From: Halanaerobium praevalens DSM 2228
GTDB taxonomy: Bacteria > Bacillota > Halanaerobiia > Halanaerobiales > Halanaerobiaceae
Assembly: GCF_000165465.1 (NCBI RefSeq)
Contig: NC_017455.1
Coordinates: forward strand, 1,240,001-1,304,000
Length of the DNA stretch: 64,000 nt
Direction of reading: 5' to 3'
Below are positions 2,968-18,789 of the stretch, in pieces. A program made the translations under genes and the position numbers. The notes under the pieces are model-generated. The model searched no databases, was not told where the DNA came from, and saw nothing but the letters and a program-made list of their open reading frames with translations. The stretch's first letter is position 1; each line of letters begins with the position of its first letter.

Positions 2968-3345
2968 ATGAATTTAAAAGAAAAAACTATGCAGTTGAAA
3001 AATTGGGCTGTTGTTGGTGCCACAAATAAAAAAAATAAATTTGGTTATTTAATACCTTTAAGACTCAAAGAAAATGATTATCAAGTTTATCCTGTTAATC
3101 CCAAATTAGAAGAAGTTGCTGGACTTAAATGCTATTCTAGTTTAAACTCCATTAAAAGCAAAATTGATGTTGTTGATTTAGTAGTTAATCCTGAAATTGG
3201 AATTAAAGTTATGGAAGAAATAAAGCAGCTAGATATTAAATATGTCTGGCTCCAGCCAGGGGCTAGAAGTGATCAAATAAAAGAATATGCTAAAAAACAT
3301 CAGATTGAGATAATAGAATCCTGTATTTATGCCAGCCTTAGTTAA
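2968..3345 (+). CDS. CoA-binding domain protein (YccU-like)
   Basis: 125 residues forming one Rossmann-type CoA-binding domain: the N-terminal WAVVGATNKKNKFGY loop would contact the nucleotide, and VYPVNPKLEEVAG is the usual second-strand signature. Length matches the stand-alone YccU/CoA_binding_2 family (about 120-145 residues). Molecular function in this family is poorly defined. The ATG is preceded by AAAGGAG. It is a single-gene unit facing the amylase gene, with a shared terminator between them. Confidence 0.85.
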   Translation: MNLKEKTMQLKNWAVVGATNKKNKFGYLIPLRLKENDYQVYPVNPKLEEVAGLKCYSSLNSIKSKIDVVDLVVNPEIGIKVMEEIKQLDIKYVWLQPGARSDQIKEYAKKHQIEIIESCIYASLS

Positions 3346-3396
3346 TTAGAAATAAATTAGCTTTAGATCTTTAAGTTTATTTTAATTGAACAAAGA

Positions 3397-3432
3397 AAAC
3401 TCCATCTAAATTAATAATTTAGGTGGAGTTTT
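3397..3432. terminator. bidirectional rho-independent terminator
   Basis: A 17-bp stem (AAAACTCCATCTAAATT pairing with its near-complement, one G-T pair) with a 2-3 base loop. Its A-rich left foot and T-rich right foot let it serve the plus-strand CoA-binding gene and the convergent minus-strand amylase gene. Confidence 0.85.
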
Positions 3433-3459
3433 AATTTGAATTTAAATCAATTATCCCGC

Positions 3460-5247
3460 TTAAAGTTTATAAATAACTCTTCCTTGAGCTGGTACTTTAA
3501 TAGTAATATAATAATATTCTGGATTTAATTCTTGAACTTCGCTTTCACATTCAATTTGAGCTTCTACAGAAGAATAAATACATTTAAAATAATCACCTGG
3601 TTTGTGTAAATCACTATCAACCATTACCTTAACTTCCAACTCTTTTTCCAAATTACAATTAATAGCTAACAAATATTCTTCCCTGTTAAATAATCTAGAC
3701 CAACCAACTACTTCTAGACAATTATCCTGCTCACAATTAGCTAATTCAAAAGATTTTTCTGTTAAAATTACTTCTCTTGCATATTGTCTTCCCATTTGTA
3801 ATCCTAATTCTTGATTTCTAATTGAAATTAAATTTTTAACTTCTTGATAAATATCATTTTCTTGATCAAAAAAACTTCTATTTTGAGTTCTAAAAGCTCC
3901 ATACTTGCCACCAAACATAGCTTCTCTAATATATTTTTCAGCCTCTCCTTCTCCATCAAATCCTTGCTCTGTTCCATAATAAATACAGGGAATACCAGCT
4001 GAAAAAAGATTTAAAAAGAGGGCGTTTTTTAATAAAGGAGCTTTTTCTCGATCAGCAGCAAATCTTGCTTTATAATTTTGTCTATAAATCATGTCATGAT
4101 CATTAAACATTGTTATAATATTGCTCTGATACCACTGATTTTCAAATTGACCTAATAATTTAGAATTAGTAAAAATAGAAAAATAATCTTCAGATTTTTG
4201 ATAACCTTTAGCAACATTTTCTAAATTTAAAGGAATACTATTAATTCCCAAAGCAGCATCAAGTCCAGTCTGTTCCATTAAATTTTTAGCAAACTCTAAA
4301 CCACCAGCGATTTCGCCAATTAAACCAAAGTTCTTTTTTCCTATTGAATAAGCAAACTCATGGATTTCAACTGCAAAATATTTAGTTGCTCCTGGAAACA
4401 TATGCTTAACTGTATCAATTCTAAAAGCATCTAAATCAGCATAAGCTATCCAGTATTTATAACATTCAGTTAAAATTTCTAGAGCTCGTGAAGGTTTAAA
4501 ATATTCTAAACTTCCCCAACCAGTATGGATATTTTTTAAAGAAAAAAAATCACCTTCAATATATTCAGGATAATTATCCCAATTATTTATATAGCCTTTA
4601 CGGCTAAAGGTATCTAAATTAAAAATTTCTTGAGGCCAAATTCCCCCATCAGGCCAAGCAGCATCATAATCAGGATTTAGAGGATCAATAGTTGCTTCTT
4701 TATTTTGATCATAAAAACCTTTAACAGGATGTTCACGCGAATTATATGGTTCTGCTTTTTCATAAGCAAAAACATCACCTGTATGATTTAAAATTATATC
4801 CAAAATAACATAAATTCCTCTAGCATGAGCAGCATCAACTAAATCTCTCAAATCTTCTTTAGTTCCAAAATGAGGATCAATTTCTAAAAAATTTTGAATT
4901 CCATAACCATGATAAGAGGTAGAATATTTAGGCTGTTTTAAAACTGGACTTAACCAAATACCTGTAATTCCCATTTCTTTAAGATAATCAAGTTTTTTTA
5001 TGACTCCTCTTAAATTACCACCATTCCACTGATAGCTATTTTTTAACCATTCTTCTTTAGTCTCCTCTTTATCTAAAGCATTTTCATAATCTGCTTCTGG
5101 GTTATAAATTGGATAATCAGCATCAATATCATTAAAGCGGTCTACAAGTAAAAAATATAAAATTTGTTCTTCTAAACATTCAGGTGACTTTGTATATTCC
5201 CTATTTTTAACTAATTCCTTTAGATCGAAATCTTTATAACTTCTCAT
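3460..5247 (-). CDS. GH13 alpha-amylase family glycoside hydrolase
   Basis: 595 residues without a signal peptide, so probably cytoplasmic. The four GH13 regions are visible: DIILNH (~150-155), AFRID with the nucleophile Asp at ~278, GEIAGG with the acid/base Glu at ~312, and NDHD at ~382-385. The C-terminal ~100 residues are a beta domain. It likely hydrolyses or transfers alpha-1,4-glucans or maltodextrins; the exact specificity is not readable. A GAGGGGACT ribosome-binding site precedes the ATG. It is monocistronic, sharing a terminator with the convergent gene to its left. Confidence 0.9.
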   Translation of the reverse strand: MRSYKDFDLKELVKNREYTKSPECLEEQILYFLLVDRFNDIDADYPIYNPEADYENALDKEETKEEWLKNSYQWNGGNLRGVIKKLDYLKEMGITGIWLSPVLKQPKYSTSYHGYGIQNFLEIDPHFGTKEDLRDLVDAAHARGIYVILDIILNHTGDVFAYEKAEPYNSREHPVKGFYDQNKEATIDPLNPDYDAAWPDGGIWPQEIFNLDTFSRKGYINNWDNYPEYIEGDFFSLKNIHTGWGSLEYFKPSRALEILTECYKYWIAYADLDAFRIDTVKHMFPGATKYFAVEIHEFAYSIGKKNFGLIGEIAGGLEFAKNLMEQTGLDAALGINSIPLNLENVAKGYQKSEDYFSIFTNSKLLGQFENQWYQSNIITMFNDHDMIYRQNYKARFAADREKAPLLKNALFLNLFSAGIPCIYYGTEQGFDGEGEAEKYIREAMFGGKYGAFRTQNRSFFDQENDIYQEVKNLISIRNQELGLQMGRQYAREVILTEKSFELANCEQDNCLEVVGWSRLFNREEYLLAINCNLEKELEVKVMVDSDLHKPGDYFKCIYSSVEAQIECESEVQELNPEYYYITIKVPAQGRVIYKL

Positions 5248-8406: not shown

Positions 8407-8518
8407 TTTACTGCCTCCAATTTAAACATTAATTGAGAAATTAACTAATTATCTATTTATTTACATTATACTAAATAATGATTTAATTATCAATTATTTA
8501 AAAATTACTAAAATAAAT

Positions 8519-8544
8519 TAGCCGCTTCTTAAAAAGCGGCTAAT
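8519..8544 (-). terminator. terminator of the Tm-1/PEP-hydrolase operon
   Basis: GCCGCTT and AAGCGGC arms around a short A/T loop, flanked by TTA/TAA. It lies 25 bases downstream of the stop of the TIM-barrel gene. Confidence 0.75.
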
Positions 8545-8568: not shown

Positions 8569-9396
8569 TTAAATATTTATTTTTTTAAAGGCTTCAGTTT
8601 GTTTTTTAATTGCTGTTTCTGTAGGAAGTCTCTCAATACTTGAAGCACCAAAGAAACCAACTACATTTTTAGTATTTTCTAAGACATATTTAGCATCTTC
8701 AGGCATTGCAATTGGACCACCATGACAAATGACCATTAGTTCTGGATTAACACTTTTACCTGCATCAGCAATTTTTTGTACTTTTTCTGCACTTTCTTTT
8801 AAATCAAGAGCTGTTTCAGCTCCAATGCTGCCACTAGTAGTTAAACCCATATGAGCAACTAAAACATCTGCTCCAGCTTCTGCCATAGCTTTAGCATCGT
8901 CTTCATCAAAAACATAAGGAGCTGTAAACAAACCAAGCTTATGAGCTTTTCTAATCATTTCTACTTCTAAATCATAGCCCATCCCTGTTTCTTCTAGATT
9001 TTGTCTAAACACACCATCAATTAAACCAACAGTAGGAAAGTTCTGAACTCCAGAAAAGCCCATATCTTTTAGTTCTTTTAGAAAATTATCCATTAAACGA
9101 AAAGGATCTGTACCACAGACCCCAGCTAAAACTGGAGTTTCTTCGGCTACAGGTAAAACTTCAGCAGCCATTTCCTTGACTATTCCATTAGCATCTCCAT
9201 AAGGAAGTAAACCAGCAAGTGAGCCCCGACCCGCCATCCTATATCTACCAGAATTATAGATAATAATTAAGTCAACTCCACCTTGTTGAGCAAATTTAGC
9301 CGAAATACCAGTCCCCGCTCCAGCTCCAACTACACTTTTTCCTTTTTTAATTTCTTTTTCTAATTTGGCCTTAATTTCTGCACGAGTAAATCTCAT
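8569..9396 (-). CDS. PEP-hydrolase-like TIM-barrel protein
   Basis: 275 residues from the ATG at 9396, which has a perfect GGAGGAATAAG ribosome-binding site; upstream in-frame codons up to 9450 have none. The sequence is the 'phosphoenolpyruvate hydrolase family / TIM-barrel signal transduction' type: GAGAGTGISAK at the N-terminus, NFPTVGLIDG in the middle, LVAHMGLT and FFGASSIERLP towards the end. This family is related to PEP mutase-like barrels, but its substrate is unknown. It follows the Tm-1-like gene by 53 bases as an operon. Its domain recurs as the sensor part of the neighbouring activator. Confidence 0.85.
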   Translation of the reverse strand: MRFTRAEIKAKLEKEIKKGKSVVGAGAGTGISAKFAQQGGVDLIIIYNSGRYRMAGRGSLAGLLPYGDANGIVKEMAAEVLPVAEETPVLAGVCGTDPFRLMDNFLKELKDMGFSGVQNFPTVGLIDGVFRQNLEETGMGYDLEVEMIRKAHKLGLFTAPYVFDEDDAKAMAEAGADVLVAHMGLTTSGSIGAETALDLKESAEKVQKIADAGKSVNPELMVICHGGPIAMPEDAKYVLENTKNVVGFFGASSIERLPTETAIKKQTEAFKKINI

Positions 9397-9449: not shown

Positions 9450-10667
9450 TTAAGCTTTAGCTTCAATTAATTCAACTAATTCTTTGGCCATTGCTAAAGC
9501 ATATTCTTGATCATTAATATGCATTTCTTTTTCTATAATTTTAATTTTTTGCTGATTAATTTTTTCTTTTAAAGTCTCAAAAAGAATTTGATCTGCTTCT
9601 GGATTATAAAAGGGCTTTTTTGGAGCATCTATCATAGAAACACCTTTTAAAGGTAAAAATAAAGTTGTTGGTCCTTGAGTCTGATTTAATTTTTTAGCCA
9701 TTATTTCAGCTAACTTTTTATTTTCAGAAGCTGTAGTTCTCATTAATGTTACATTTGCATTATGCTGATATAAATTTCTTTCTTCAAATTCTTTGGGAAC
9801 TGAAGCAAGAGGACCAAAGTTAACCATATCCAAAGCCCCAGTCGAAACAATTTGAGGTATTCCATTTTTGGCGGCAGCCTCTAATCGATTTGGACCAGCT
9901 GATAAGACACCTCCTACTAATTCATCACAAAGCTCAGTTGTTGTAATATCAAGTACACCCTTTATAAAACCTGATTCAATTAAATTTTCCATTGCTTTAC
10001 CACCTGTTCCAGTAGCATGAAAAACTAAAACTTCATAGCCTTCAGTTTCTAGATATTCTCTTGCTTTTTCTACAGCTGGAGTTGTGACTCCAAACATAGT
10101 TGCTGCAATTAAAGGCCTTTGTTTTTCTAATTCTGGAGTTTGATCTTTAACCATTCCACTAACTGCAAAAGCTGCATTAGCTAATATCCTAGCTGATAAG
10201 CTATTAACTCCCAAAATATCAACTACTGAATAAATCATTGTAATATCTTTTGTGCCAACATAAGGTCTTGTATTACCAGAAGCAAGTGTAGAAACCATTA
10301 CTTTAGGGATACCAACTGGTAGACGCTTCATTGCTGTTGTTGCTATTGTAGTTCCAGCAGAGCCTCCTAAACTAATAATTCCATTTAATTTTCCGGTTGC
10401 TAATAGTTCTTCTACAATTAGAGCTGTCCCTTTTGACATAACTTCCATGGAATGGCCGCGATCACCAGCTTCAATTAATTTTTCTATACTTTCTCCACCA
10501 GCTTCAGCTACCTGCGCTCGCTCAATATCAGGTTCAAAGTATGCTTCTCCCATAACACCTGCATCAACTACAATAGTTTCTAGTCCTTCTCCTTCTATTA
10601 TATCTTTAATATATTTAAACTCTTCCCCTTTAGTATCTAAAGTACCGACTATAACAATTTGCTTCAC
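9450..10667 (-). CDS. Tm-1-like ATP-binding domain protein (UPF0261)
   Basis: 405 residues. The start (IVIVGTLDTKGEEF) and the following VVDAGVMGE are the signature of the UPF0261/Tm-1-like family. The N-terminal half binds ATP in the tomato Tm-1 resistance protein, and the GGSAGTTIAT loop is a likely phosphate contact. In bacteria these proteins are almost always next to the TIM-barrel partner, as here; the plant protein is a fusion of the two. The bacterial reaction is not established. Expression is probably sigma-54 dependent (promoter at 10731-10745). Confidence 0.88.
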   Translation of the reverse strand: MKQIVIVGTLDTKGEEFKYIKDIIEGEGLETIVVDAGVMGEAYFEPDIERAQVAEAGGESIEKLIEAGDRGHSMEVMSKGTALIVEELLATGKLNGIISLGGSAGTTIATTAMKRLPVGIPKVMVSTLASGNTRPYVGTKDITMIYSVVDILGVNSLSARILANAAFAVSGMVKDQTPELEKQRPLIAATMFGVTTPAVEKAREYLETEGYEVLVFHATGTGGKAMENLIESGFIKGVLDITTTELCDELVGGVLSAGPNRLEAAAKNGIPQIVSTGALDMVNFGPLASVPKEFEERNLYQHNANVTLMRTTASENKKLAEIMAKKLNQTQGPTTLFLPLKGVSMIDAPKKPFYNPEADQILFETLKEKINQQKIKIIEKEMHINDQEYALAMAKELVELIEAKA

Positions 10668-10730
10668 TAAAAACCCTCCTCAATTTTATAAAAATAATAA
10701 TTTTTTTAATTCTTTCACTAATTATATTAT

Positions 10731-10745
10731 GCAATAATAATACCA
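10731..10745 (-). promoter_or_regulatory. sigma-54 (-24/-12) promoter
   Basis: The minus strand reads TGGTATTATTATTGC: GG and GC are separated by exactly ten bases, and TTGCAT completes the -12 element. The consensus is TGGCACG-N4-TTGCA, so the -24 box is imperfect. The expected start point is about 50 bases before the Tm-1-like ATG at 10667. The bacterial enhancer-binding protein encoded next door makes this assignment likely. Confidence 0.65.
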
Positions 10746-10850
10746 AAACTCTTTAAAAGTCGAAAAATAGGCTAAATAAAGTTCTTTTAAAAGCAAAAAA
10801 GATTTTTCTGGCCAAATTAAATTTTTATTTTAAATTTAAAAATAAAAATA

Positions 10851-10919
10851 GTGTAAAAATTTACACAGTTTTAGCTGCTTTTAAAAAGAGAATTTGCTTA
10901 ACTGAGTAAAAATTTACAC
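10851..10919. promoter_or_regulatory. two upstream activator sites
   Basis: A dyad GTGTAAAAATTTACAC (10851-10866) is nearly repeated as GAGTAAAAATTTACAC (10904-10919). Centres are 53 bases apart, about five helical turns, so both would face the same side of the DNA. They sit ~110-180 bases upstream of the -24/-12 promoter, the usual place for enhancer sites of a sigma-54 activator. The likely binder is the Fis-type HTH of the neighbouring regulator (inference). Confidence 0.6.
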
Positions 10920-10952: not shown

Positions 10953-12761
10953 TTAAATTTCATATTCTTTTATTTTATTATAAAGAGTTTTTCTACTAAT
11001 TTTTAAAAAATTAGCTGTTTTAGTTTTATTGAAATTATTAGTTTTTAAAGCATTTTTTATAATTTTTTTTTCATATAAACCTAAATGACTATTTAAGCTC
11101 TGAGGAATTTTATTTTTTTGATTTTCTGTAAAATTAGGATCTAATTTTTTTAAGTTCTGAGGCAGATTTTTAACTCTAATAGCATGATCTTCAGCTAAAA
11201 TCGCAGCTCTTTCCAAAATATTTTTAAGTTCCCTGACATTTCCTGGCCAATCATAATCCATAAAAATATCAAATACTTCGGGCTCTATTTTTAAAATATC
11301 AATTGAAAATTTATTTTTAATTTTATCAATAAAATTATTAACTAAAAGTGGAATATCTTCTTTATGTTTTCTTAAAGGTGGAGTATTAATTGAAACAACA
11401 TTTAATCTATAAAATAAATCTTCTCGAAATTCTCCTTTTGCAACTGCTTTTCTTAAATTAATATTTGTAGCTGATATAATTCTGACATCAACATTAATTG
11501 TTCTATTGCTTCCAACTCTTTCAAATTCTTTTTCTTGTAAAACTCTTAATAATTTGGCCTGCAAATTGACATCAATCTCTCCAACTTCATCTAAAAATAA
11601 AGTTCCCTTATCTGCTAATTCAAATTTACCAATCCTCTTTTTATTAGCTCCTGTAAATGAACCTTTTTCATGGCCAAATAATTCACTTTCTAATAATTTT
11701 TCTGGAATTGTAGCACAATTAATCTTAACAAAAGGCTTATTACGACGCTGACTATTATAATGCAAAGCTCTACAAACTAATTCTTTACCAGTTCCACTTT
11801 CACCATTAACTAAAACATTAACATTCTTATTTGCTATTTTATCTATTAAATCATAGATTTCCTGCATAATTAGACTTTGACCTACTAATTTATCAAATCC
11901 CTTTTTCTTAATTAATTCTTGTTTTAGCTTCTTATTTTCCTTTTTTAATTTATAGTAGTTTTTAAAACTATTAACTGTATCTTTAATACTAAGTTCGACT
12001 GGAATTCTCTCAAAAGTTGAGCCGCCTATATAACCAATTGTATCAGTTTCTTGATAAAACTTATTAACTTTAGCTGGTTCTTTAATATCCCCACCACCAT
12101 AAATCATTGTTAAAACATCATTATTTACTTTTTTAGCTGCTTTAAATATTTTTCTAACTAGTTTAATATCTTCTAATAATTTATGATCATTTTTTATTCC
12201 TTTTTCTCCTCCAGCTGTCCAACCTAAATGAGCACAAATAAGATCAACTCCAACAGCTGCCATTTTCGCTGCCTGCTCTGGTTCAAATACAAAAGCTATT
12301 GTATATAAACCTTTTTTAACTGCTTTTTGCATGAATTTTATTTCTTTTTCAAAACCAAGTCCATTGACCTCTAAAGCCTGCCGATACTTACCATCAATTA
12401 GCCCTACAGTTGGAAAATTATTAACCCCAATAAAACCTGCTTCAATAATATTATTAAGTAAATTTTCATCAGAGTTAGTAATATCTGCAGCAAAAGCTCC
12501 GAAAATTACAGGGGTATTTTTAACTCGAGGTAATATTTCTTTTTTAGCAAATTTAAGATTTAATTGATTGCTATTAGCAAAGGGTAACATTGCTGCTAGA
12601 GAAGAAACACCAGCATTTCTGAAATAGCCCGCACTTAAGGCTAAAATAAAATCTGCTCCACCTTCTGCTACCTGTTTAGCTGATAATCCACTACCAACTG
12701 CAACTCCAATTAATGGTCTGTTGGCCTTAATACTTTTTTCAATTCTATTTTGAATATTCAT
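10953..12761 (-). CDS. sigma-54-dependent activator with PEP-hydrolase-like sensor domain
   Basis: 602 residues. Residues 1-~265 are a TIM barrel of the same family as the enzyme at 8569-9396, sharing NNFPTVGLIDGKYRQ and the GSTFERIP end. A basic coiled coil (~268-290) links to an AAA+ domain: Walker A GESGTGKE (320-327), the sigma-54 contact loop GSFTGA (367-372) and Walker B TLFLDE (387-392). A Fis-type helix-turn-helix ends the protein (NKTKTANFLKISRKTLYNKI). It should open a sigma-54 promoter on sensing a ligand in the barrel. It lies directly upstream of the Tm-1-like operon on the same strand. Confidence 0.93.
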   Translation of the reverse strand: MNIQNRIEKSIKANRPLIGVAVGSGLSAKQVAEGGADFILALSAGYFRNAGVSSLAAMLPFANSNQLNLKFAKKEILPRVKNTPVIFGAFAADITNSDENLLNNIIEAGFIGVNNFPTVGLIDGKYRQALEVNGLGFEKEIKFMQKAVKKGLYTIAFVFEPEQAAKMAAVGVDLICAHLGWTAGGEKGIKNDHKLLEDIKLVRKIFKAAKKVNNDVLTMIYGGGDIKEPAKVNKFYQETDTIGYIGGSTFERIPVELSIKDTVNSFKNYYKLKKENKKLKQELIKKKGFDKLVGQSLIMQEIYDLIDKIANKNVNVLVNGESGTGKELVCRALHYNSQRRNKPFVKINCATIPEKLLESELFGHEKGSFTGANKKRIGKFELADKGTLFLDEVGEIDVNLQAKLLRVLQEKEFERVGSNRTINVDVRIISATNINLRKAVAKGEFREDLFYRLNVVSINTPPLRKHKEDIPLLVNNFIDKIKNKFSIDILKIEPEVFDIFMDYDWPGNVRELKNILERAAILAEDHAIRVKNLPQNLKKLDPNFTENQKNKIPQSLNSHLGLYEKKIIKNALKTNNFNKTKTANFLKISRKTLYNKIKEYEI

Positions 12762-12807: not shown

Positions 12808-12858
12808 TTAACTTAACTACTTAAGTTAATTATAAGAGTTGAAAGAGTTTGTGTCCAA
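12808..12858 (-). promoter_or_regulatory. sigma-70 type promoter and perfect dyad before the activator gene
   Basis: Minus strand: TTGGAC (12858-12853), 18 bases, TATAAT (12834-12829), followed at once by a perfect 9-bp inverted repeat TTAACTTAA-N4-TTAAGTTAA (12808-12829). A repressor bound there would cover the start point. The binder is unknown. Confidence 0.5.
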
Positions 12859-12864
12859 TAATTT

Positions 12865-12908
12865 AAAGGCCCTCCTCAAAAATTAAAATTTGAAGAAGGC
12901 CTTTTTTT
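12865..12908. terminator. hairpin between ribose operon and activator gene
   Basis: AAAGGCC and GGCCTTT arms around a long imperfect stem, then TTTTTTT on the plus side. The T-run favours plus-strand termination, yet the only adjacent transcript that ends here is the minus-strand ribose operon. It may work in both directions. Confidence 0.55.
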
Positions 12909-12992
12909 ATCAAACTCTAAGTTAAATTTAAATTATCTAGCAAGATTTAACTGAGTCTAAATCATATTTAATTTAAATTACTATTTCTTAAT

Positions 12993-13883
12993 TTACTCAG
13001 TAATTAATTCTAAAGGAACAGGAGTATATTCTTCAACTTCTTTACCATTTGCTACCTCAATTGCTTTTTTTACAGCCATTTCACCCATTAAACCTGGTTT
13101 TTGGGCCACAGTTGCTGCTAATTCTCCTTCTTTTACAGCTTCTCTAGCATCATCAATAGCATCAAAACCAACAATCATAATCTCATCTGAACGACCAGCA
13201 GCTGAAATAGCTTCCATTGCACCTAAGGCCATATTATCATTATGAGCAAATACAGCATCTATTTTTGAATTACCCTGCAGGATATTTTCCATAACCGTCA
13301 TACCTTCTGCTCTATCAAAAGCAGCTGGTTGTCTAGCAATAACTTCCATTTCAGGATAGCTATCAATACTTATATTAAACCCGTTACCTCTATCTCTAGC
13401 AGCAGAGGTTCCTGGAATTCCCTGAAGTTCTACTACTTTAGCTTTTTCACCTAGCTGCTCAGCAATAAAGTCTCCTGCCATTTTCCCACCAGCTACATTA
13501 TCAGATGCAATATGACTTGCAACTTTTCCACCTTCAGCTGCACGATCAACTGTAATTACTGGTACACCAGCATTATTTGCTGAACTAATTGCAGAAACAA
13601 CAGCATCACCATCAACAGGATTAACAATTAAAACATCTATCTGTTTAATTAACAGATCTTCAACACTACTTAACTGACTTGCAGCATCATCTTGAGCATC
13701 TACAGTTAAAATTTCAATTCCCATTTCTGCTGCCATGGCTTCAGCACCATCTTTTAGATCAACAAAAAAAGGATTATTTAAAGTAGAGACAGCCAAACCA
13801 ATTTTAATATCCTGTGCTGCAGTACCAAGCGAAAGACCTACCACCAACATAAAAGCTAATGTTAAAATAATAGTTTTTCTCAT
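12993..13883 (-). CDS. rbsB: D-ribose ABC transporter substrate-binding protein
   Basis: 296 residues. It begins with a cleavable signal peptide (MRKTIILTLAFMLVVGLSLG, likely cut after TAAQ) and has no lipobox cysteine. A soluble periplasmic protein implies an outer membrane. The mature part is a type I periplasmic binding fold: GLAVSTLNNPFF, NPVDGDAV, TVDRAAEGG, FAHNDNMALGA. It captures ribose (or a similar sugar) for RbsAC. Last gene of the operon. Confidence 0.92.
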   Translation of the reverse strand: MRKTIILTLAFMLVVGLSLGTAAQDIKIGLAVSTLNNPFFVDLKDGAEAMAAEMGIEILTVDAQDDAASQLSSVEDLLIKQIDVLIVNPVDGDAVVSAISSANNAGVPVITVDRAAEGGKVASHIASDNVAGGKMAGDFIAEQLGEKAKVVELQGIPGTSAARDRGNGFNISIDSYPEMEVIARQPAAFDRAEGMTVMENILQGNSKIDAVFAHNDNMALGAMEAISAAGRSDEIMIVGFDAIDDAREAVKEGELAATVAQKPGLMGEMAVKKAIEVANGKEVEEYTPVPLELITE

Positions 13884-13987
13884 TTTTTTATTCCTCCTTG
13901 AATTTAATTCTTTAAATGAATATTTGTCAAAAAGAAGCTGCTTAAAAGCTCACCCCCTATTTGAAATATTTTACTTAATTTATATTA

Positions 13988-14947
13988 TTACTGCTGCTGA
14001 CTCTTACGATCTAAGAAAACAGCTAACAGAATAACAGCACCTTTGGCAACTAGCTGATAAAATGAAGATACATTTAAAAGATTTAAACCATTATTTAAAA
14101 CTGCGATAATTAAAGCACCAATAATAGTTCCAATTACTCCTCCACGACCACCAGAAAGGCTAGTTCCTCCTAGTACAACTGCAGCAATTGCATCTAATTC
14201 ATAGCCTTCTCCAGCCATTGGCTGAGCTGAATTAAGTCTTGAAGTTAAAATAATACCACTTGCTGCAGCTAAAAATCCATTGAGACCATAAACTGCTATT
14301 TTAATTTTATCTGTATTAATACCTGATAATCTAGTTGCTTTTTCATTACCACCAATAGCATAAATATAGCGTCCTAAAGGTGTTTTTTTAAGTAAAATAA
14401 AAATTACAAATAAGAGGATAAACATAATCACAACTGGAATTGGAATCTTAACTAAATAGCCAGCCCCAAAAAATCTAAAAGTATCGTTAAAACCTGAAAT
14501 GGGACGTCCACTAGTATAAATAAGTGTAAAACCCCGGGCAATAGTCATCATAGCTAAAGTTACTATAAAAGCAGGCAATTTAGCTTTAGCAACTGCAATT
14601 CCATTAAATAAGCCTAAAACAGTACCTGCTGCTAGACCAACTAAAATCGCTAAAAAAACATTAAGACCAGAATTAACCATCATCCCTGCTGCAATAGCTC
14701 CAGAAAAAGCAAGCATTGAGCCAACCGACAGATCAATCCCACCTGTTAGAATTACCATTGTCATTCCAAAGGATATAATAGCGATAACTGAAACCTGTCT
14801 CACTATATTTAATAAATTTGGTACTGTTAAAAAGTAAGGACTCATAAAAGATAGGATAATTACTAAAATTAAAAGCCCAATACCTGTTTTAAACTTATTT
14901 AAAATTTCTAAAAAATTTTTATTTTTAATATCATTTAAATTATTCAC
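13988..14947 (-). CDS. rbsC: D-ribose ABC transporter permease
   Basis: 319 residues with about ten hydrophobic segments and the [14 protein letters not shown] signature of RbsC/AraH permeases. It overlaps the end of rbsA by eight bases, indicating translational coupling. It forms the membrane channel, probably as a dimer. Confidence 0.93.
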
Positions 14948-16448
14948 TTTGCTGACTCCTCCTTCCAGTTGCTAGCTTCATAATAGCTTCTTGATCTGCC
15001 TGAGCAGCATCCAACTCTCCTATAATTTCTTTTTCATGCATTACTAAAAGTCTGTTACTTAAATTTAAAACTTCTGGTAATTCTGATGAAATTAAAATAA
15101 CTGCAACATCTTGCTCAATTAAATCTTGCATTAAATTATAAATTTCTCTTTTAGCTCCAACATCAATACCCCGAGTTGGTTCATCAAAAATTACAACCTC
15201 TGGTTTAGTAGAAAGCAGTTTAGAAATCACAACTTTTTGCTGGTTGCCTCCACTTAAATTTTTAAGAAGCTGTTTTTCTGAAGGAGTTTTGATATTTAAA
15301 TCTTCAATATATTTTTGGGAAAGTTCTTTTTCCTGATCTGAATCAATAAAAAACTTAGCTTTTAAAATTCTTTTTAAAACAGAAATACTAATATTATCAG
15401 AAACTGAGAGTCCCAGAATTAAGCCTTCATCTTTGCGGTCTTCACTTAAATAAGAAATTCCATTATTTAGAGCATCTGCAGGAGAACTAATTTGTAATTT
15501 TTTCCCTCTATAATAAATATCTCCTGTTTTTTCTTTAAAAACCCCAAAAACTGCTTTAGCTAATTCTGTTCTACCAGAACCCATCAAACCAGCTACTCCA
15601 AGTATTTCTCCTTTACGCAGTGAAAAAGAAGCATTAATTATTTTATCAGGGACAGATAAATTTTCAACTCTCAAAATTTCTTCTCCTGGATTAAATCTCA
15701 TTTTCGGAAAACGATCTTCAATTTTTCGACCGACCATCATTTTAATTAATTCATTTTCATCAGTCTCAACTGTCTCAACTTCACCCACAAATTTACCATC
15801 TCTTAAAACAGTAACTCGATCACAGATTTCGAAAACTTCTTCTAAACGATGAGAAATATAAACAATTGCTATATCCTGTTTTTTTAGCCTTTCTATCAGT
15901 TCAAATAAAATTTTAATTTCCTGATTAGTAAGTGAAGAAGTGGGCTCATCCATCACTAGTATATCAGAATTTTGAGAAACAGCCTTAGCAATCTCCACCA
16001 TTTGCTGGCTACCAATATTTAAATCTTTAATTTTGGCTTTAGGATTAATCTGGACCCCCAGCATCTCCAAAACAGCATTTGTTTTTTGATAAAGTTTTTG
16101 ATAATCAATAAAAATACTATTTTTTTCTTCTCGACCAAGATAAATATTTTCTGCTACATTAAGATGAGGAATTAATTCTAACTCCTGATGAATAATTGCC
16201 AAACCAGAATTTTGGGCTTCTTTTGGTCCCTTAAATTCAACCTCCTTACCTTTTAAAATAATTCGACCTTCATCACGCTTATGAATTCCATTCAGTACTT
16301 TCATCAAAGTTGATTTCCCAGCTCCATTTTCTCCCAGTAGAGCATGAACTTCACCTTTGCGGAGAGAAAAATTAACTTTATCTAGAGCCTTTACTCCAGG
16401 AAATTTTTTAGTGATATTTTTCATTTCCAGTACTTTTTCTGCTCCCAT
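14940..16448 (-). CDS. rbsA: D-ribose ABC transporter ATP-binding protein
   Basis: 502 residues with two ABC domains in tandem. The first has [22 protein letters not shown] and [10 protein letters not shown]. The second has a degenerate P-loop (GLMGSGRTE), [13 protein letters not shown] and [10 protein letters not shown]. This asymmetry is normal in the RbsA/MglA class. It powers uptake through RbsC. The start ATG abuts the rbsD stop. Confidence 0.94.
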
Positions 16449-16844
16449 TTAAAAATCAACTCCTGAAATCAAAATTATGTTAGCATAGGGAATAATCTCT
16501 CCACTTCGAACTACAGCTCTGGAATTATTTGTTTCTTTTTTGAACTCTTTGTGAGCTATATATTCAATTTCTATATTTGGCAGTAAAGCAATTATCTCAG
16601 CTTCTAATTCTGGACTCTTTTCTTTAATTTCTGCTGCCAGAATTGCCTTTTCTACAACTAAATCATCCAGAACACCCTTAAGTATTTTTAAGAACTTAGG
16701 ATAGCCTTTGGTCACAGATAAATCAATTCTTTTAACTGCCTGTGGAATTGGCAGGCCACAGTCTGCAACAACCAGGCTATTTTTATGTCCCATTTCTGCT
16801 ATTACTTTTGAAAGTTCACTATTAATTATTCCATTTTTCTTCAT
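16449..16844 (-). CDS. rbsD: D-ribose pyranase
   Basis: 131 residues from the ATG at 16844, which has AAGGAG nine bases upstream; this gives the usual RbsD length, whereas longer starts overlap rbsK without a site. The N-terminus MKKNGIINSELSKVIAEMGH carries the conserved His, and ADCGLPIP follows. It interconverts beta-pyranose and beta-furanose ribose ahead of ribokinase. Confidence 0.93.
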   Translation of the reverse strand: MKKNGIINSELSKVIAEMGHKNSLVVADCGLPIPQAVKRIDLSVTKGYPKFLKILKGVLDDLVVEKAILAAEIKEKSPELEAEIIALLPNIEIEYIAHKEFKKETNNSRAVVRSGEIIPYANIILISGVDF

Positions 16845-16845
16845 T

Positions 16846-17763
16846 TTAGTTACTCCTTTCTGCAAGGAATTCATTTAATTCATTTTGATCTGGTATAGAA
16901 CTCTGAGCACCTCTTTTGCTAACTGAATAAGCTGCAGCTTGAACAGCACATTTTAAAGATTTTTCCAGATCATTTTCCGAAATCAAACTGGCTGCAAAAG
17001 CACCTGCAAAAACATCGCCAGCAGCTGTTGTATCTACTGCTTTAACTTTTAGAGCATCTAAATGAAGTGCTTGCTCTTTATTATAAAAGTTGAGACCTTT
17101 TTCTCCCTCAGTCACAATAATGTTTTTCACACCTTTATCAAGTAAAATCTCAATTTTTTCTGAACGAGTTTTAGCATCAGCAGCAGCCATTAATAAATCA
17201 AGTTCACCTTCATTTGGCAGTAAAAAATCTATTTCAGATAAAATATGATCAGATAATTGTTGCGCTGGAGCTGGATCTAAAATGATTTTTGTATTATTGG
17301 CTGCAGCAATTTCTACGATTTTTGCAATAGTTTCAACAGGAATTTCCAGCTGCAGCAGTATAATTTCAGCTTCAATAATTTGAGACTTAATTTTTTCAAT
17401 TTTAGCTAGATCTAATTCATAATTTGCTCCAGGCGAAACTATAATTCTATTATTTCCTTCTGGGTCAACAGTAATGACTGCAACACCTGTACTTTTGTCT
17501 TTAATCTCAAAAATATTATCAATTTTGGCTCCACCATTTTTTAAACTTGATTTTAACATAGGAGCAAAACTGTCATCTCCACAAGCGCCAATAAATTGAA
17601 CCTCATCTCCCAACTTTGCTGCTGCTAGAGCCTGATTTGCTCCTTTACCACCTGGAATTTGTGCAAATTTACCACCAATTATAGTTTCTCCTGCTTCTGG
17701 ATAGCGTTCAGTTTGAACAACTAAATCCATATTCATACTTCCAATAACAAGAATTTTTGACAT
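16846..17763 (-). CDS. rbsK: ribokinase
   Basis: 305 residues of the PfkB family: GSMNMDLVVQ, GGKGANQA, and the C-terminal anion hole and catalytic base in DTTAAGDVFAGA. It phosphorylates ribose to ribose-5-phosphate. Start ATG has GCAGGTGG upstream. The stop codon nearly touches the rbsD start. Confidence 0.93.
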   Translation of the reverse strand: MSKILVIGSMNMDLVVQTERYPEAGETIIGGKFAQIPGGKGANQALAAAKLGDEVQFIGACGDDSFAPMLKSSLKNGGAKIDNIFEIKDKSTGVAVITVDPEGNNRIIVSPGANYELDLAKIEKIKSQIIEAEIILLQLEIPVETIAKIVEIAAANNTKIILDPAPAQQLSDHILSEIDFLLPNEGELDLLMAAADAKTRSEKIEILLDKGVKNIIVTEGEKGLNFYNKEQALHLDALKVKAVDTTAAGDVFAGAFAASLISENDLEKSLKCAVQAAAYSVSKRGAQSSIPDQNELNEFLAERSN

Positions 17764-17796
17764 TAATCCACCTGCTTTCTTATTTAGTCTCTATTT

Positions 17797-18789
17797 TTAA
17801 ACTGATTCTCTAATAACTAACTTAGTTTTTAATATTTGAGCTTCAACTTCCGCCTCATAATTATCTATCATTTTTAAAAGTACTGAAACTGCTTTTTCAC
17901 CTAAACTATATTTGGGCTGTCTCATAGTGGTCAGCTCTGGTCTTAAAAGTGATGCTATATCAATATCATCATGTCCTGCTACTGCAATATCAGCTGGAAT
18001 ATTTAAACCAGCAGCAAATAGAGCTTTATAAACACCAGCAGCACTTAAGTCATTAGCTGCAAAGACAGCTGTTGGTGGCTCTTTTAACTTGAGTAATGTC
18101 TGCATAGCTTCAAAAGCTAATTGCTGGGTATAATCCCCTTTAATAATATAATCTTCATTAATCTCAACTTGATAGTCATTAAGTGCTTTTTTATAGCCTG
18201 CTAATCTATCTCTAGCAGTAGTAGTTTTTAAATCACCAGTGATATGAGCAATTTTTTTATATCCTTTTTTAAGCATATATTCGACCATCTGATAAGCAGA
18301 ATTTTTATTATCAATACTAACCAAAGGATAAGAATTACTAAATACAGATCTATCTATTTGAACAACAGGATAATTTGCAGCCTTTAATTCTTTTAAAATT
18401 TCTTCATTTCCTAGTGAAAGAGATACTATTAACCCATCAACCTGTTTACTTTTAAATAGTTCAACTGCTTTCTTTTCTTTTTCCAGATGATTATCTGTAT
18501 TAAAAAAAATTATTGAATAACCTGATTTTTGAGCTTTATCTTCAATAGCTCGAGCAACTTGTGGAAAAAAAGGATTGCTGATATCAGGAATAATTAAACC
18601 AATCGTATGTGTTTTCTGCATTACAAGTCCCCGAGCTACACTATTTGGCTTATAATTCAGTTCTTCAATTAGCTTTAAAATCTTAGTCCTAGTCTGATCA
18701 CCAACATCAGGTTTATTATTTAAAACTCGCGAAACTGTAGTTACTGAGACATTAGCTTTTTTTGCAATATCTTTAATTGTGACTTTCAT
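17797..18789 (-). CDS. rbsR: LacI-family ribose operon repressor
   Basis: 330 residues: N-terminal LacI helix-turn-helix (IAKKANVSVTTVSRVLN) with the hinge-region NSVARGL, then a periplasmic-binding-like effector domain. First gene of the rbsRKDACB operon, so it controls its own synthesis through the operator at 18875-18899. Ribose as inducer is inferred from context. Confidence 0.9.
   Translation of the reverse strand: MKVTIKDIAKKANVSVTTVSRVLNNKPDVGDQTRTKILKLIEELNYKPNSVARGLVMQKTHTIGLIIPDISNPFFPQVARAIEDKAQKSGYSIIFFNTDNHLEKEKKAVELFKSKQVDGLIVSLSLGNEEILKELKAANYPVVQIDRSVFSNSYPLVSIDNKNSAYQMVEYMLKKGYKKIAHITGDLKTTTARDRLAGYKKALNDYQVEINEDYIIKGDYTQQLAFEAMQTLLKLKEPPTAVFAANDLSAAGVYKALFAAGLNIPADIAVAGHDDIDIASLLRPELTTMRQPKYSLGEKAVSVLLKMIDNYEAEVEAQILKTKLVIRESV

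Follow-up and report, generated by a model that had tools for sequence, protein, structure and literature searches.

Enhancer-binding proteins (EBPs) of the NifA, NtrC and FhlA type combine an AAA+ sigma-54 activation domain with a Fis-type helix-turn-helix (HTH), act from distant phased enhancer sites, and sense through GAF, PAS or receiver domains. In Halanaerobium praevalens DSM 2228, a 64-kb stretch of DNA analysed here (the window) contains an EBP with the same activation domain, HTH type and distant phased sites, but its sensor is a PF09370 TIM barrel and it serves a single local operon. PF09370 was named "TIM-barrel signal transduction" in earlier Pfam versions, a name that already pointed to its presence on sigma-54 activators; as a domain architecture, the combination is therefore known. 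In Clostridiales, sigma-54 EBP regulons (Nie, Dong and Yang, 2019, PMC6615313) likewise consist of one-component EBPs, upstream activating (UAS) dyads, -24/-12 promoters and metabolic operons; however, Table 1 of that study contains 39 EBP groups, not one of which targets UPF0261/PF09370 genes, its list of sensor domains does not include PF09370, and many of the groups recognize TGT-N10-12-ACA, whereas the half-site here is TGNG(T/A)AA. RtcR, the EBP of the RNA repair operon, similarly couples an unusual ligand-binding sensor to a small operon whose function was at first not known, although its sensor is a CARF-type domain responding to damaged tRNA and not a TIM barrel (PMC7790460). The two genes regulated at the H. 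praevalens locus, the bacterial UPF0261-TBST pair, correspond to the two domains of plant Tm-1, and at the present locus the pair has a regulator of its own that contains a paralogue of one of the partners; the paper on the origin of Tm-1 reports coevolution of UPF0261 and PF09370, and its text contains nothing on sigma factors or transcription (PMC5028733). In the literature searched, no paper on the regulation of UPF0261/PF09370 was found. The mechanism class (EBP, UAS, sigma-54) is classical and ordinary, while that literature appears to contain no description of the control region, of the operon it serves or of the exchange of output domains discussed below.

The target operon lies on the minus strand and begins with the UPF0261 (Tm-1-like) gene (9450..10667; relatives in the PDB are Tm-1, 3wrw/3wry, and 9mpy), which starts with GTG at 10667 behind the ribosome-binding site GAGGAGGG (10674..10681). 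The second gene (8569..9396) encodes the stand-alone PF09370 TIM-barrel protein (TBST; PDB 2p10, E 4.5e-108) and is followed by an intrinsic-terminator-like hairpin (8517..8544) at the end of the two-gene operon. By Pfam the two are adjacent PF06792/PF23189 and PF09370 genes, as in other Tm-1-like pairs. Upstream of the first gene, the minus strand reads TGGTATTATTATTGCA (10745-10730), an exact GG-N10-GC with conserved flanks, as the original prediction had stated for the DNA before the Tm-1-like gene; re-reading this element and the dyads to the base found all of its coordinates correct. The full-consensus -24/-12 pattern matches once in the window, but the 2.3-Mb genome has 22 matches, most of them within long ORFs, and for this reason the consensus alone is no proof; a reversed-pattern control is misleading here, as coding sequence holds most of the matches. 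Stronger evidence is the placement of TGGTATTATTATTGCA in its intergenic region, which has p ~0.001 against dinucleotide shuffles, with no such element on the opposite strand of that region in the same scoring. Counting 12 nt from the C of the -12 box by the spacing rule, the transcription start is predicted at about 10719, the position expected previously.

Further upstream, direct reading finds GTGTAAAAATTTACAC at 10851-10866 and, with one mismatch, GAGTAAAAATTTACAC at 10904-10919. On the minus strand these putative upstream activating dyads read GTGTAAATTTTTACAC (proximal) and GTGTAAATTTTTACTC (distal), with centres at about -139 and -192 when counted from the predicted start at 10719. Both are 16 bp long, and their start-to-start distance is exactly 53 bp, in line with the spacing originally given for a dyad and its near-copy. 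The exact dyad occurs once in the window, and the strict dyad GNGTAANNNNTTACNC has three sites in the genome, the two described and one orphan, GCGTAAAAAGTTACTC, at 1524605. A distance of 350 bp separates the orphan from TGGCACATCTCTTGCT, a -24/-12 look-alike (both within G000:C1:1524605-1524970), and the place resembles repeated DNA; the orphan was rejected as a second target since it has no adjoining gene start and the look-alike 16-mer recurs at 1171399. No other dyad pair of the same kind was found in the genome-wide search, which had been suggested as a way to find the regulon and which returned the local operon and no further target. The regulon in the H. praevalens genome is this single operon.

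The adjacent gene (10953..12761, minus strand), proposed as the activator, encodes a complete EBP, with the PF09370 sensor at aa 2-267, a Sigma54_activat AAA+ domain (PF00158) at aa 291-457 followed by an AAA lid, and a Fis-type HTH_8 at aa 563-599 (E 2.5e-12), all by Pfam. Alignment identifies Walker A (GESGTGKE) and a GSFTGA loop, an accepted functional variant of GAFTGA (PMC6615313, PMC4641369), so that a PF00158 domain with both motifs, a C-terminal Fis HTH and a phased dyad UAS occur together, as in EBPs of the AAA+ group. A probable sigma-70-like housekeeping promoter of the EBP gene (TGGACA-17-TATAAT, 12829..12857, minus strand) matches the consensus at 11/12 positions; such sites are about as frequent in the region as expected by chance, and this one is among the two best and plausibly positioned. 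A ribose-type operon on the same strand lies directly upstream (12993-18789; by sequence resemblance LacI regulator, RbsK, RbsD, RbsA, RbsC and RbsB), separated from the EBP gene by a hairpin at ~12860-12913. The genome encodes eight strong sigma-54 activation domains. It also has an intact rpoN, whose absence would have spoken against the whole reading: RpoN has ~360 aa with the N-terminal region and the NRRTVAKYR box.

Together with the comparison of loci given below, these elements make it very probable that the region is the control region of a one-operon, EBP-driven sigma-54 switch, in which the EBP would be gated by a small molecule and act by looping from the dyads. In this reading the EBP gene is transcribed from a promoter of its own, probably of the sigma-70 type, and dimers of the EBP would bind the two dyads through the Fis-type HTH on the same face of the DNA (53 bp corresponding to five turns), some 140-190 bp upstream of the start. 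Binding of a small-molecule signal by the PF09370 sensor would then lead to assembly of the AAA+ ring, the DNA would loop, and the GSFTGA loop would remodel the RNA polymerase-sigma-54 complex waiting at TGGTATTATTATTGCA, turning on the UPF0261 and stand-alone PF09370 genes.

In all, 64 loci were collected in which a PF09370-sensor regulator stands upstream of the same UPF0261 gene, 22 with EBP output and 42 with an AraC-type HTH; Pfam assigns HTH_18/HTH_AraC to all 42 of the latter and an EBP to each of the 20 members scanned of the former. The PF09370-AraC fusion, with a double HTH directly upstream of the UPF0261-PF09370 pair, is on its predicted domain content a second regulator architecture for this operon (L088-L131, L133, L134; e.g., L089:4884-6179) and is found in Paenibacillus, Clostridium, Pelosinus and Erysipelotrichaceae. 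The EBP sensor of H. praevalens matches the solved barrel 2p10 with E 2.8e-51, and judged by this similarity their relation is clear. In a PF09370 tree the stand-alone proteins group in a clade of their own (support 100), and so do the AraC sensors (99), beside the EBP sensors. The EBP sensors do not resolve into a single clade, and some of the branches are long, so that the tree is compatible with one exchange of output domains but does not prove it. Of 69 near-invariant positions of the stand-alone protein, 42 are kept in both sensor types, whereas the probable catalytic residues are replaced (D66N and H223Y) in all EBP sensors and nearly all AraC sensors. The sensor therefore looks like a paralogue of the TIM-barrel protein encoded in the operon that has probably lost catalysis but largely kept the binding pocket, and it would respond to a small molecule. 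As the pocket appears to be kept and the probable catalytic residues are replaced, the signal of the EBP is most likely the substrate of the stand-alone PF09370 protein or a related compound. At L069/L070, L078 and L079 the UPF0261-PF09370 pair is followed by genes for a Liv/HAAT-type ABC transporter (Peripla_BP_6, BPD_transp_2, ABC_tran), and at L138 likewise by ABC genes; their position beside the pair suggests that the small molecule is imported. Alternatively, sigma-54 control could be as described while the EBP is gated by contact with a protein, either UPF0261 or the stand-alone PF09370 protein. The proteins of the two families show coevolution and occur as a fusion in plants (PMC5028733), and the EBP sensor is a paralogue of the partner of UPF0261; however, the large share of conserved barrel residues kept in the sensors favours a retained ligand, and we regard gating by protein contact as unlikely, while giving it some weight.

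A whole-genome search found the order EBP, gap, UPF0261, PF09370 in the window and in 10 other genomes, among them Halanaerobium relatives of the same genus, with differing flanking genes; rpoN was found in nine of these 10 other genomes, the exception being an assembly that is 75% complete. In each gap the coding strand carries one well-scoring GG-N10-GC (p 0.0005-0.016 each against dinucleotide shuffles), and the opposite strand carries none. Across the larger sample, a generic dyad (TGNGNAA-N3/4-TTNCNCA, at least 9/10 fixed positions) is present in the gap of all 22 EBP loci (42 sites against 0.33 expected by shuffling, some loci having one dyad only above threshold) and in none of the 42 AraC loci (0.35 expected), the p values being optimistic because the pattern was widened after several loci had been seen. 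The dyads are spaced by 20, 29.5-34 or 52-53 bp, about two, three or five helical turns (Rayleigh p ~6e-4 at 10.5 bp). Moreover, the recognition helix covaries with position 5 of the half-site, RKTL going with TGNGTAA (six T and one tie) and RRTL with TGNGAAA (14 A and one T; Fisher p 1e-4, with fewer independent changes than these counts because the loci are related). An alternative is that the dyads serve as operators for a different regulator, such as the LacI-type protein encoded at 17797-18789, with the EBP acting elsewhere. A LacI-family gene does lie 5 kb upstream, and short A/T-rich dyads can mimic LacI-type operators; but the dyads accompany the EBP at every one of its loci, are absent from the AraC-type loci, although the downstream genes there are the same, and change with the recognition helix of the EBP, which ties them to the EBP and makes another regulator highly improbable.

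The promoter element divides in the same way. In the gap upstream of UPF0261, the -24/-12 element is found in 22/22 EBP loci, scoring 5.4-7 of 7, and in 0/42 AraC loci, where the best score is 3.0 and usually nothing is seen (Fisher p ~1e-17, treating as independent loci that are phylogenetically related and gaps that are on average shorter in the AraC loci). Even with related loci, shorter AraC gaps and a dyad pattern defined post hoc, the margin between EBP and AraC loci is very large. A further alternative is that the operon is transcribed from a sigma-70 promoter and that A/T-rich DNA happens to resemble a -24/-12 element here. The 22 genomic matches, mostly within ORFs, and the plentiful sigma-70-like hexamers might suggest this, but it is highly improbable given the split by regulator type and the position of the element, which lies on the coding strand in every case and as a rule 40-60 nt ahead of the start codon. 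The enhancer-driven promoter for the adjacent activator claimed in the original prediction is backed by the same comparison, and on these sequence data the sigma-54 switch is almost certainly real. In a Halanaerobium relative (G007, L068:2536-6015), a TnpB-like (OrfB_IS605) ORF at 3231-4499 splits the sensor domain of the EBP, and promoter and dyads are kept despite this. Alphaproteobacterial PF09370-AAA+-Fis proteins (L141-L147, L149, L152; e.g., L142:4962-6716) have a degraded AAA+ domain, with neither a recognisable GAFTGA loop nor a downstream UPF0261 gene found at these loci; they are possibly sigma-54-independent descendants.

The relation of the sensor to its paralogue and the exchange of output domains are additions to the original prediction. 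We lean, by a modest degree, towards the picture of a pathway enzyme turned into its own genetic sensor, in which a silenced PF09370 barrel, joined to a sigma-54 AAA+/Fis or an AraC output, senses the metabolite of the UPF0261-PF09370 pair and switches the operon on, and in which sensor and target remained associated through an exchange of the output, with the control DNA rebuilt to match. The comparison of 22 with 42 loci amounts to a clean natural experiment, in that the type of promoter follows the output domain of the regulator. In prokaryotes, UPF0261 and PF09370 proteins correspond to Tm-1, which confers virus resistance in plants, and the moderate interest of the locus lies in the handle it offers on the function of Tm-1-like proteins: a dedicated regulator with a paralogous sensor, a defined promoter and predicted binding sites would provide a direct route to the metabolite.
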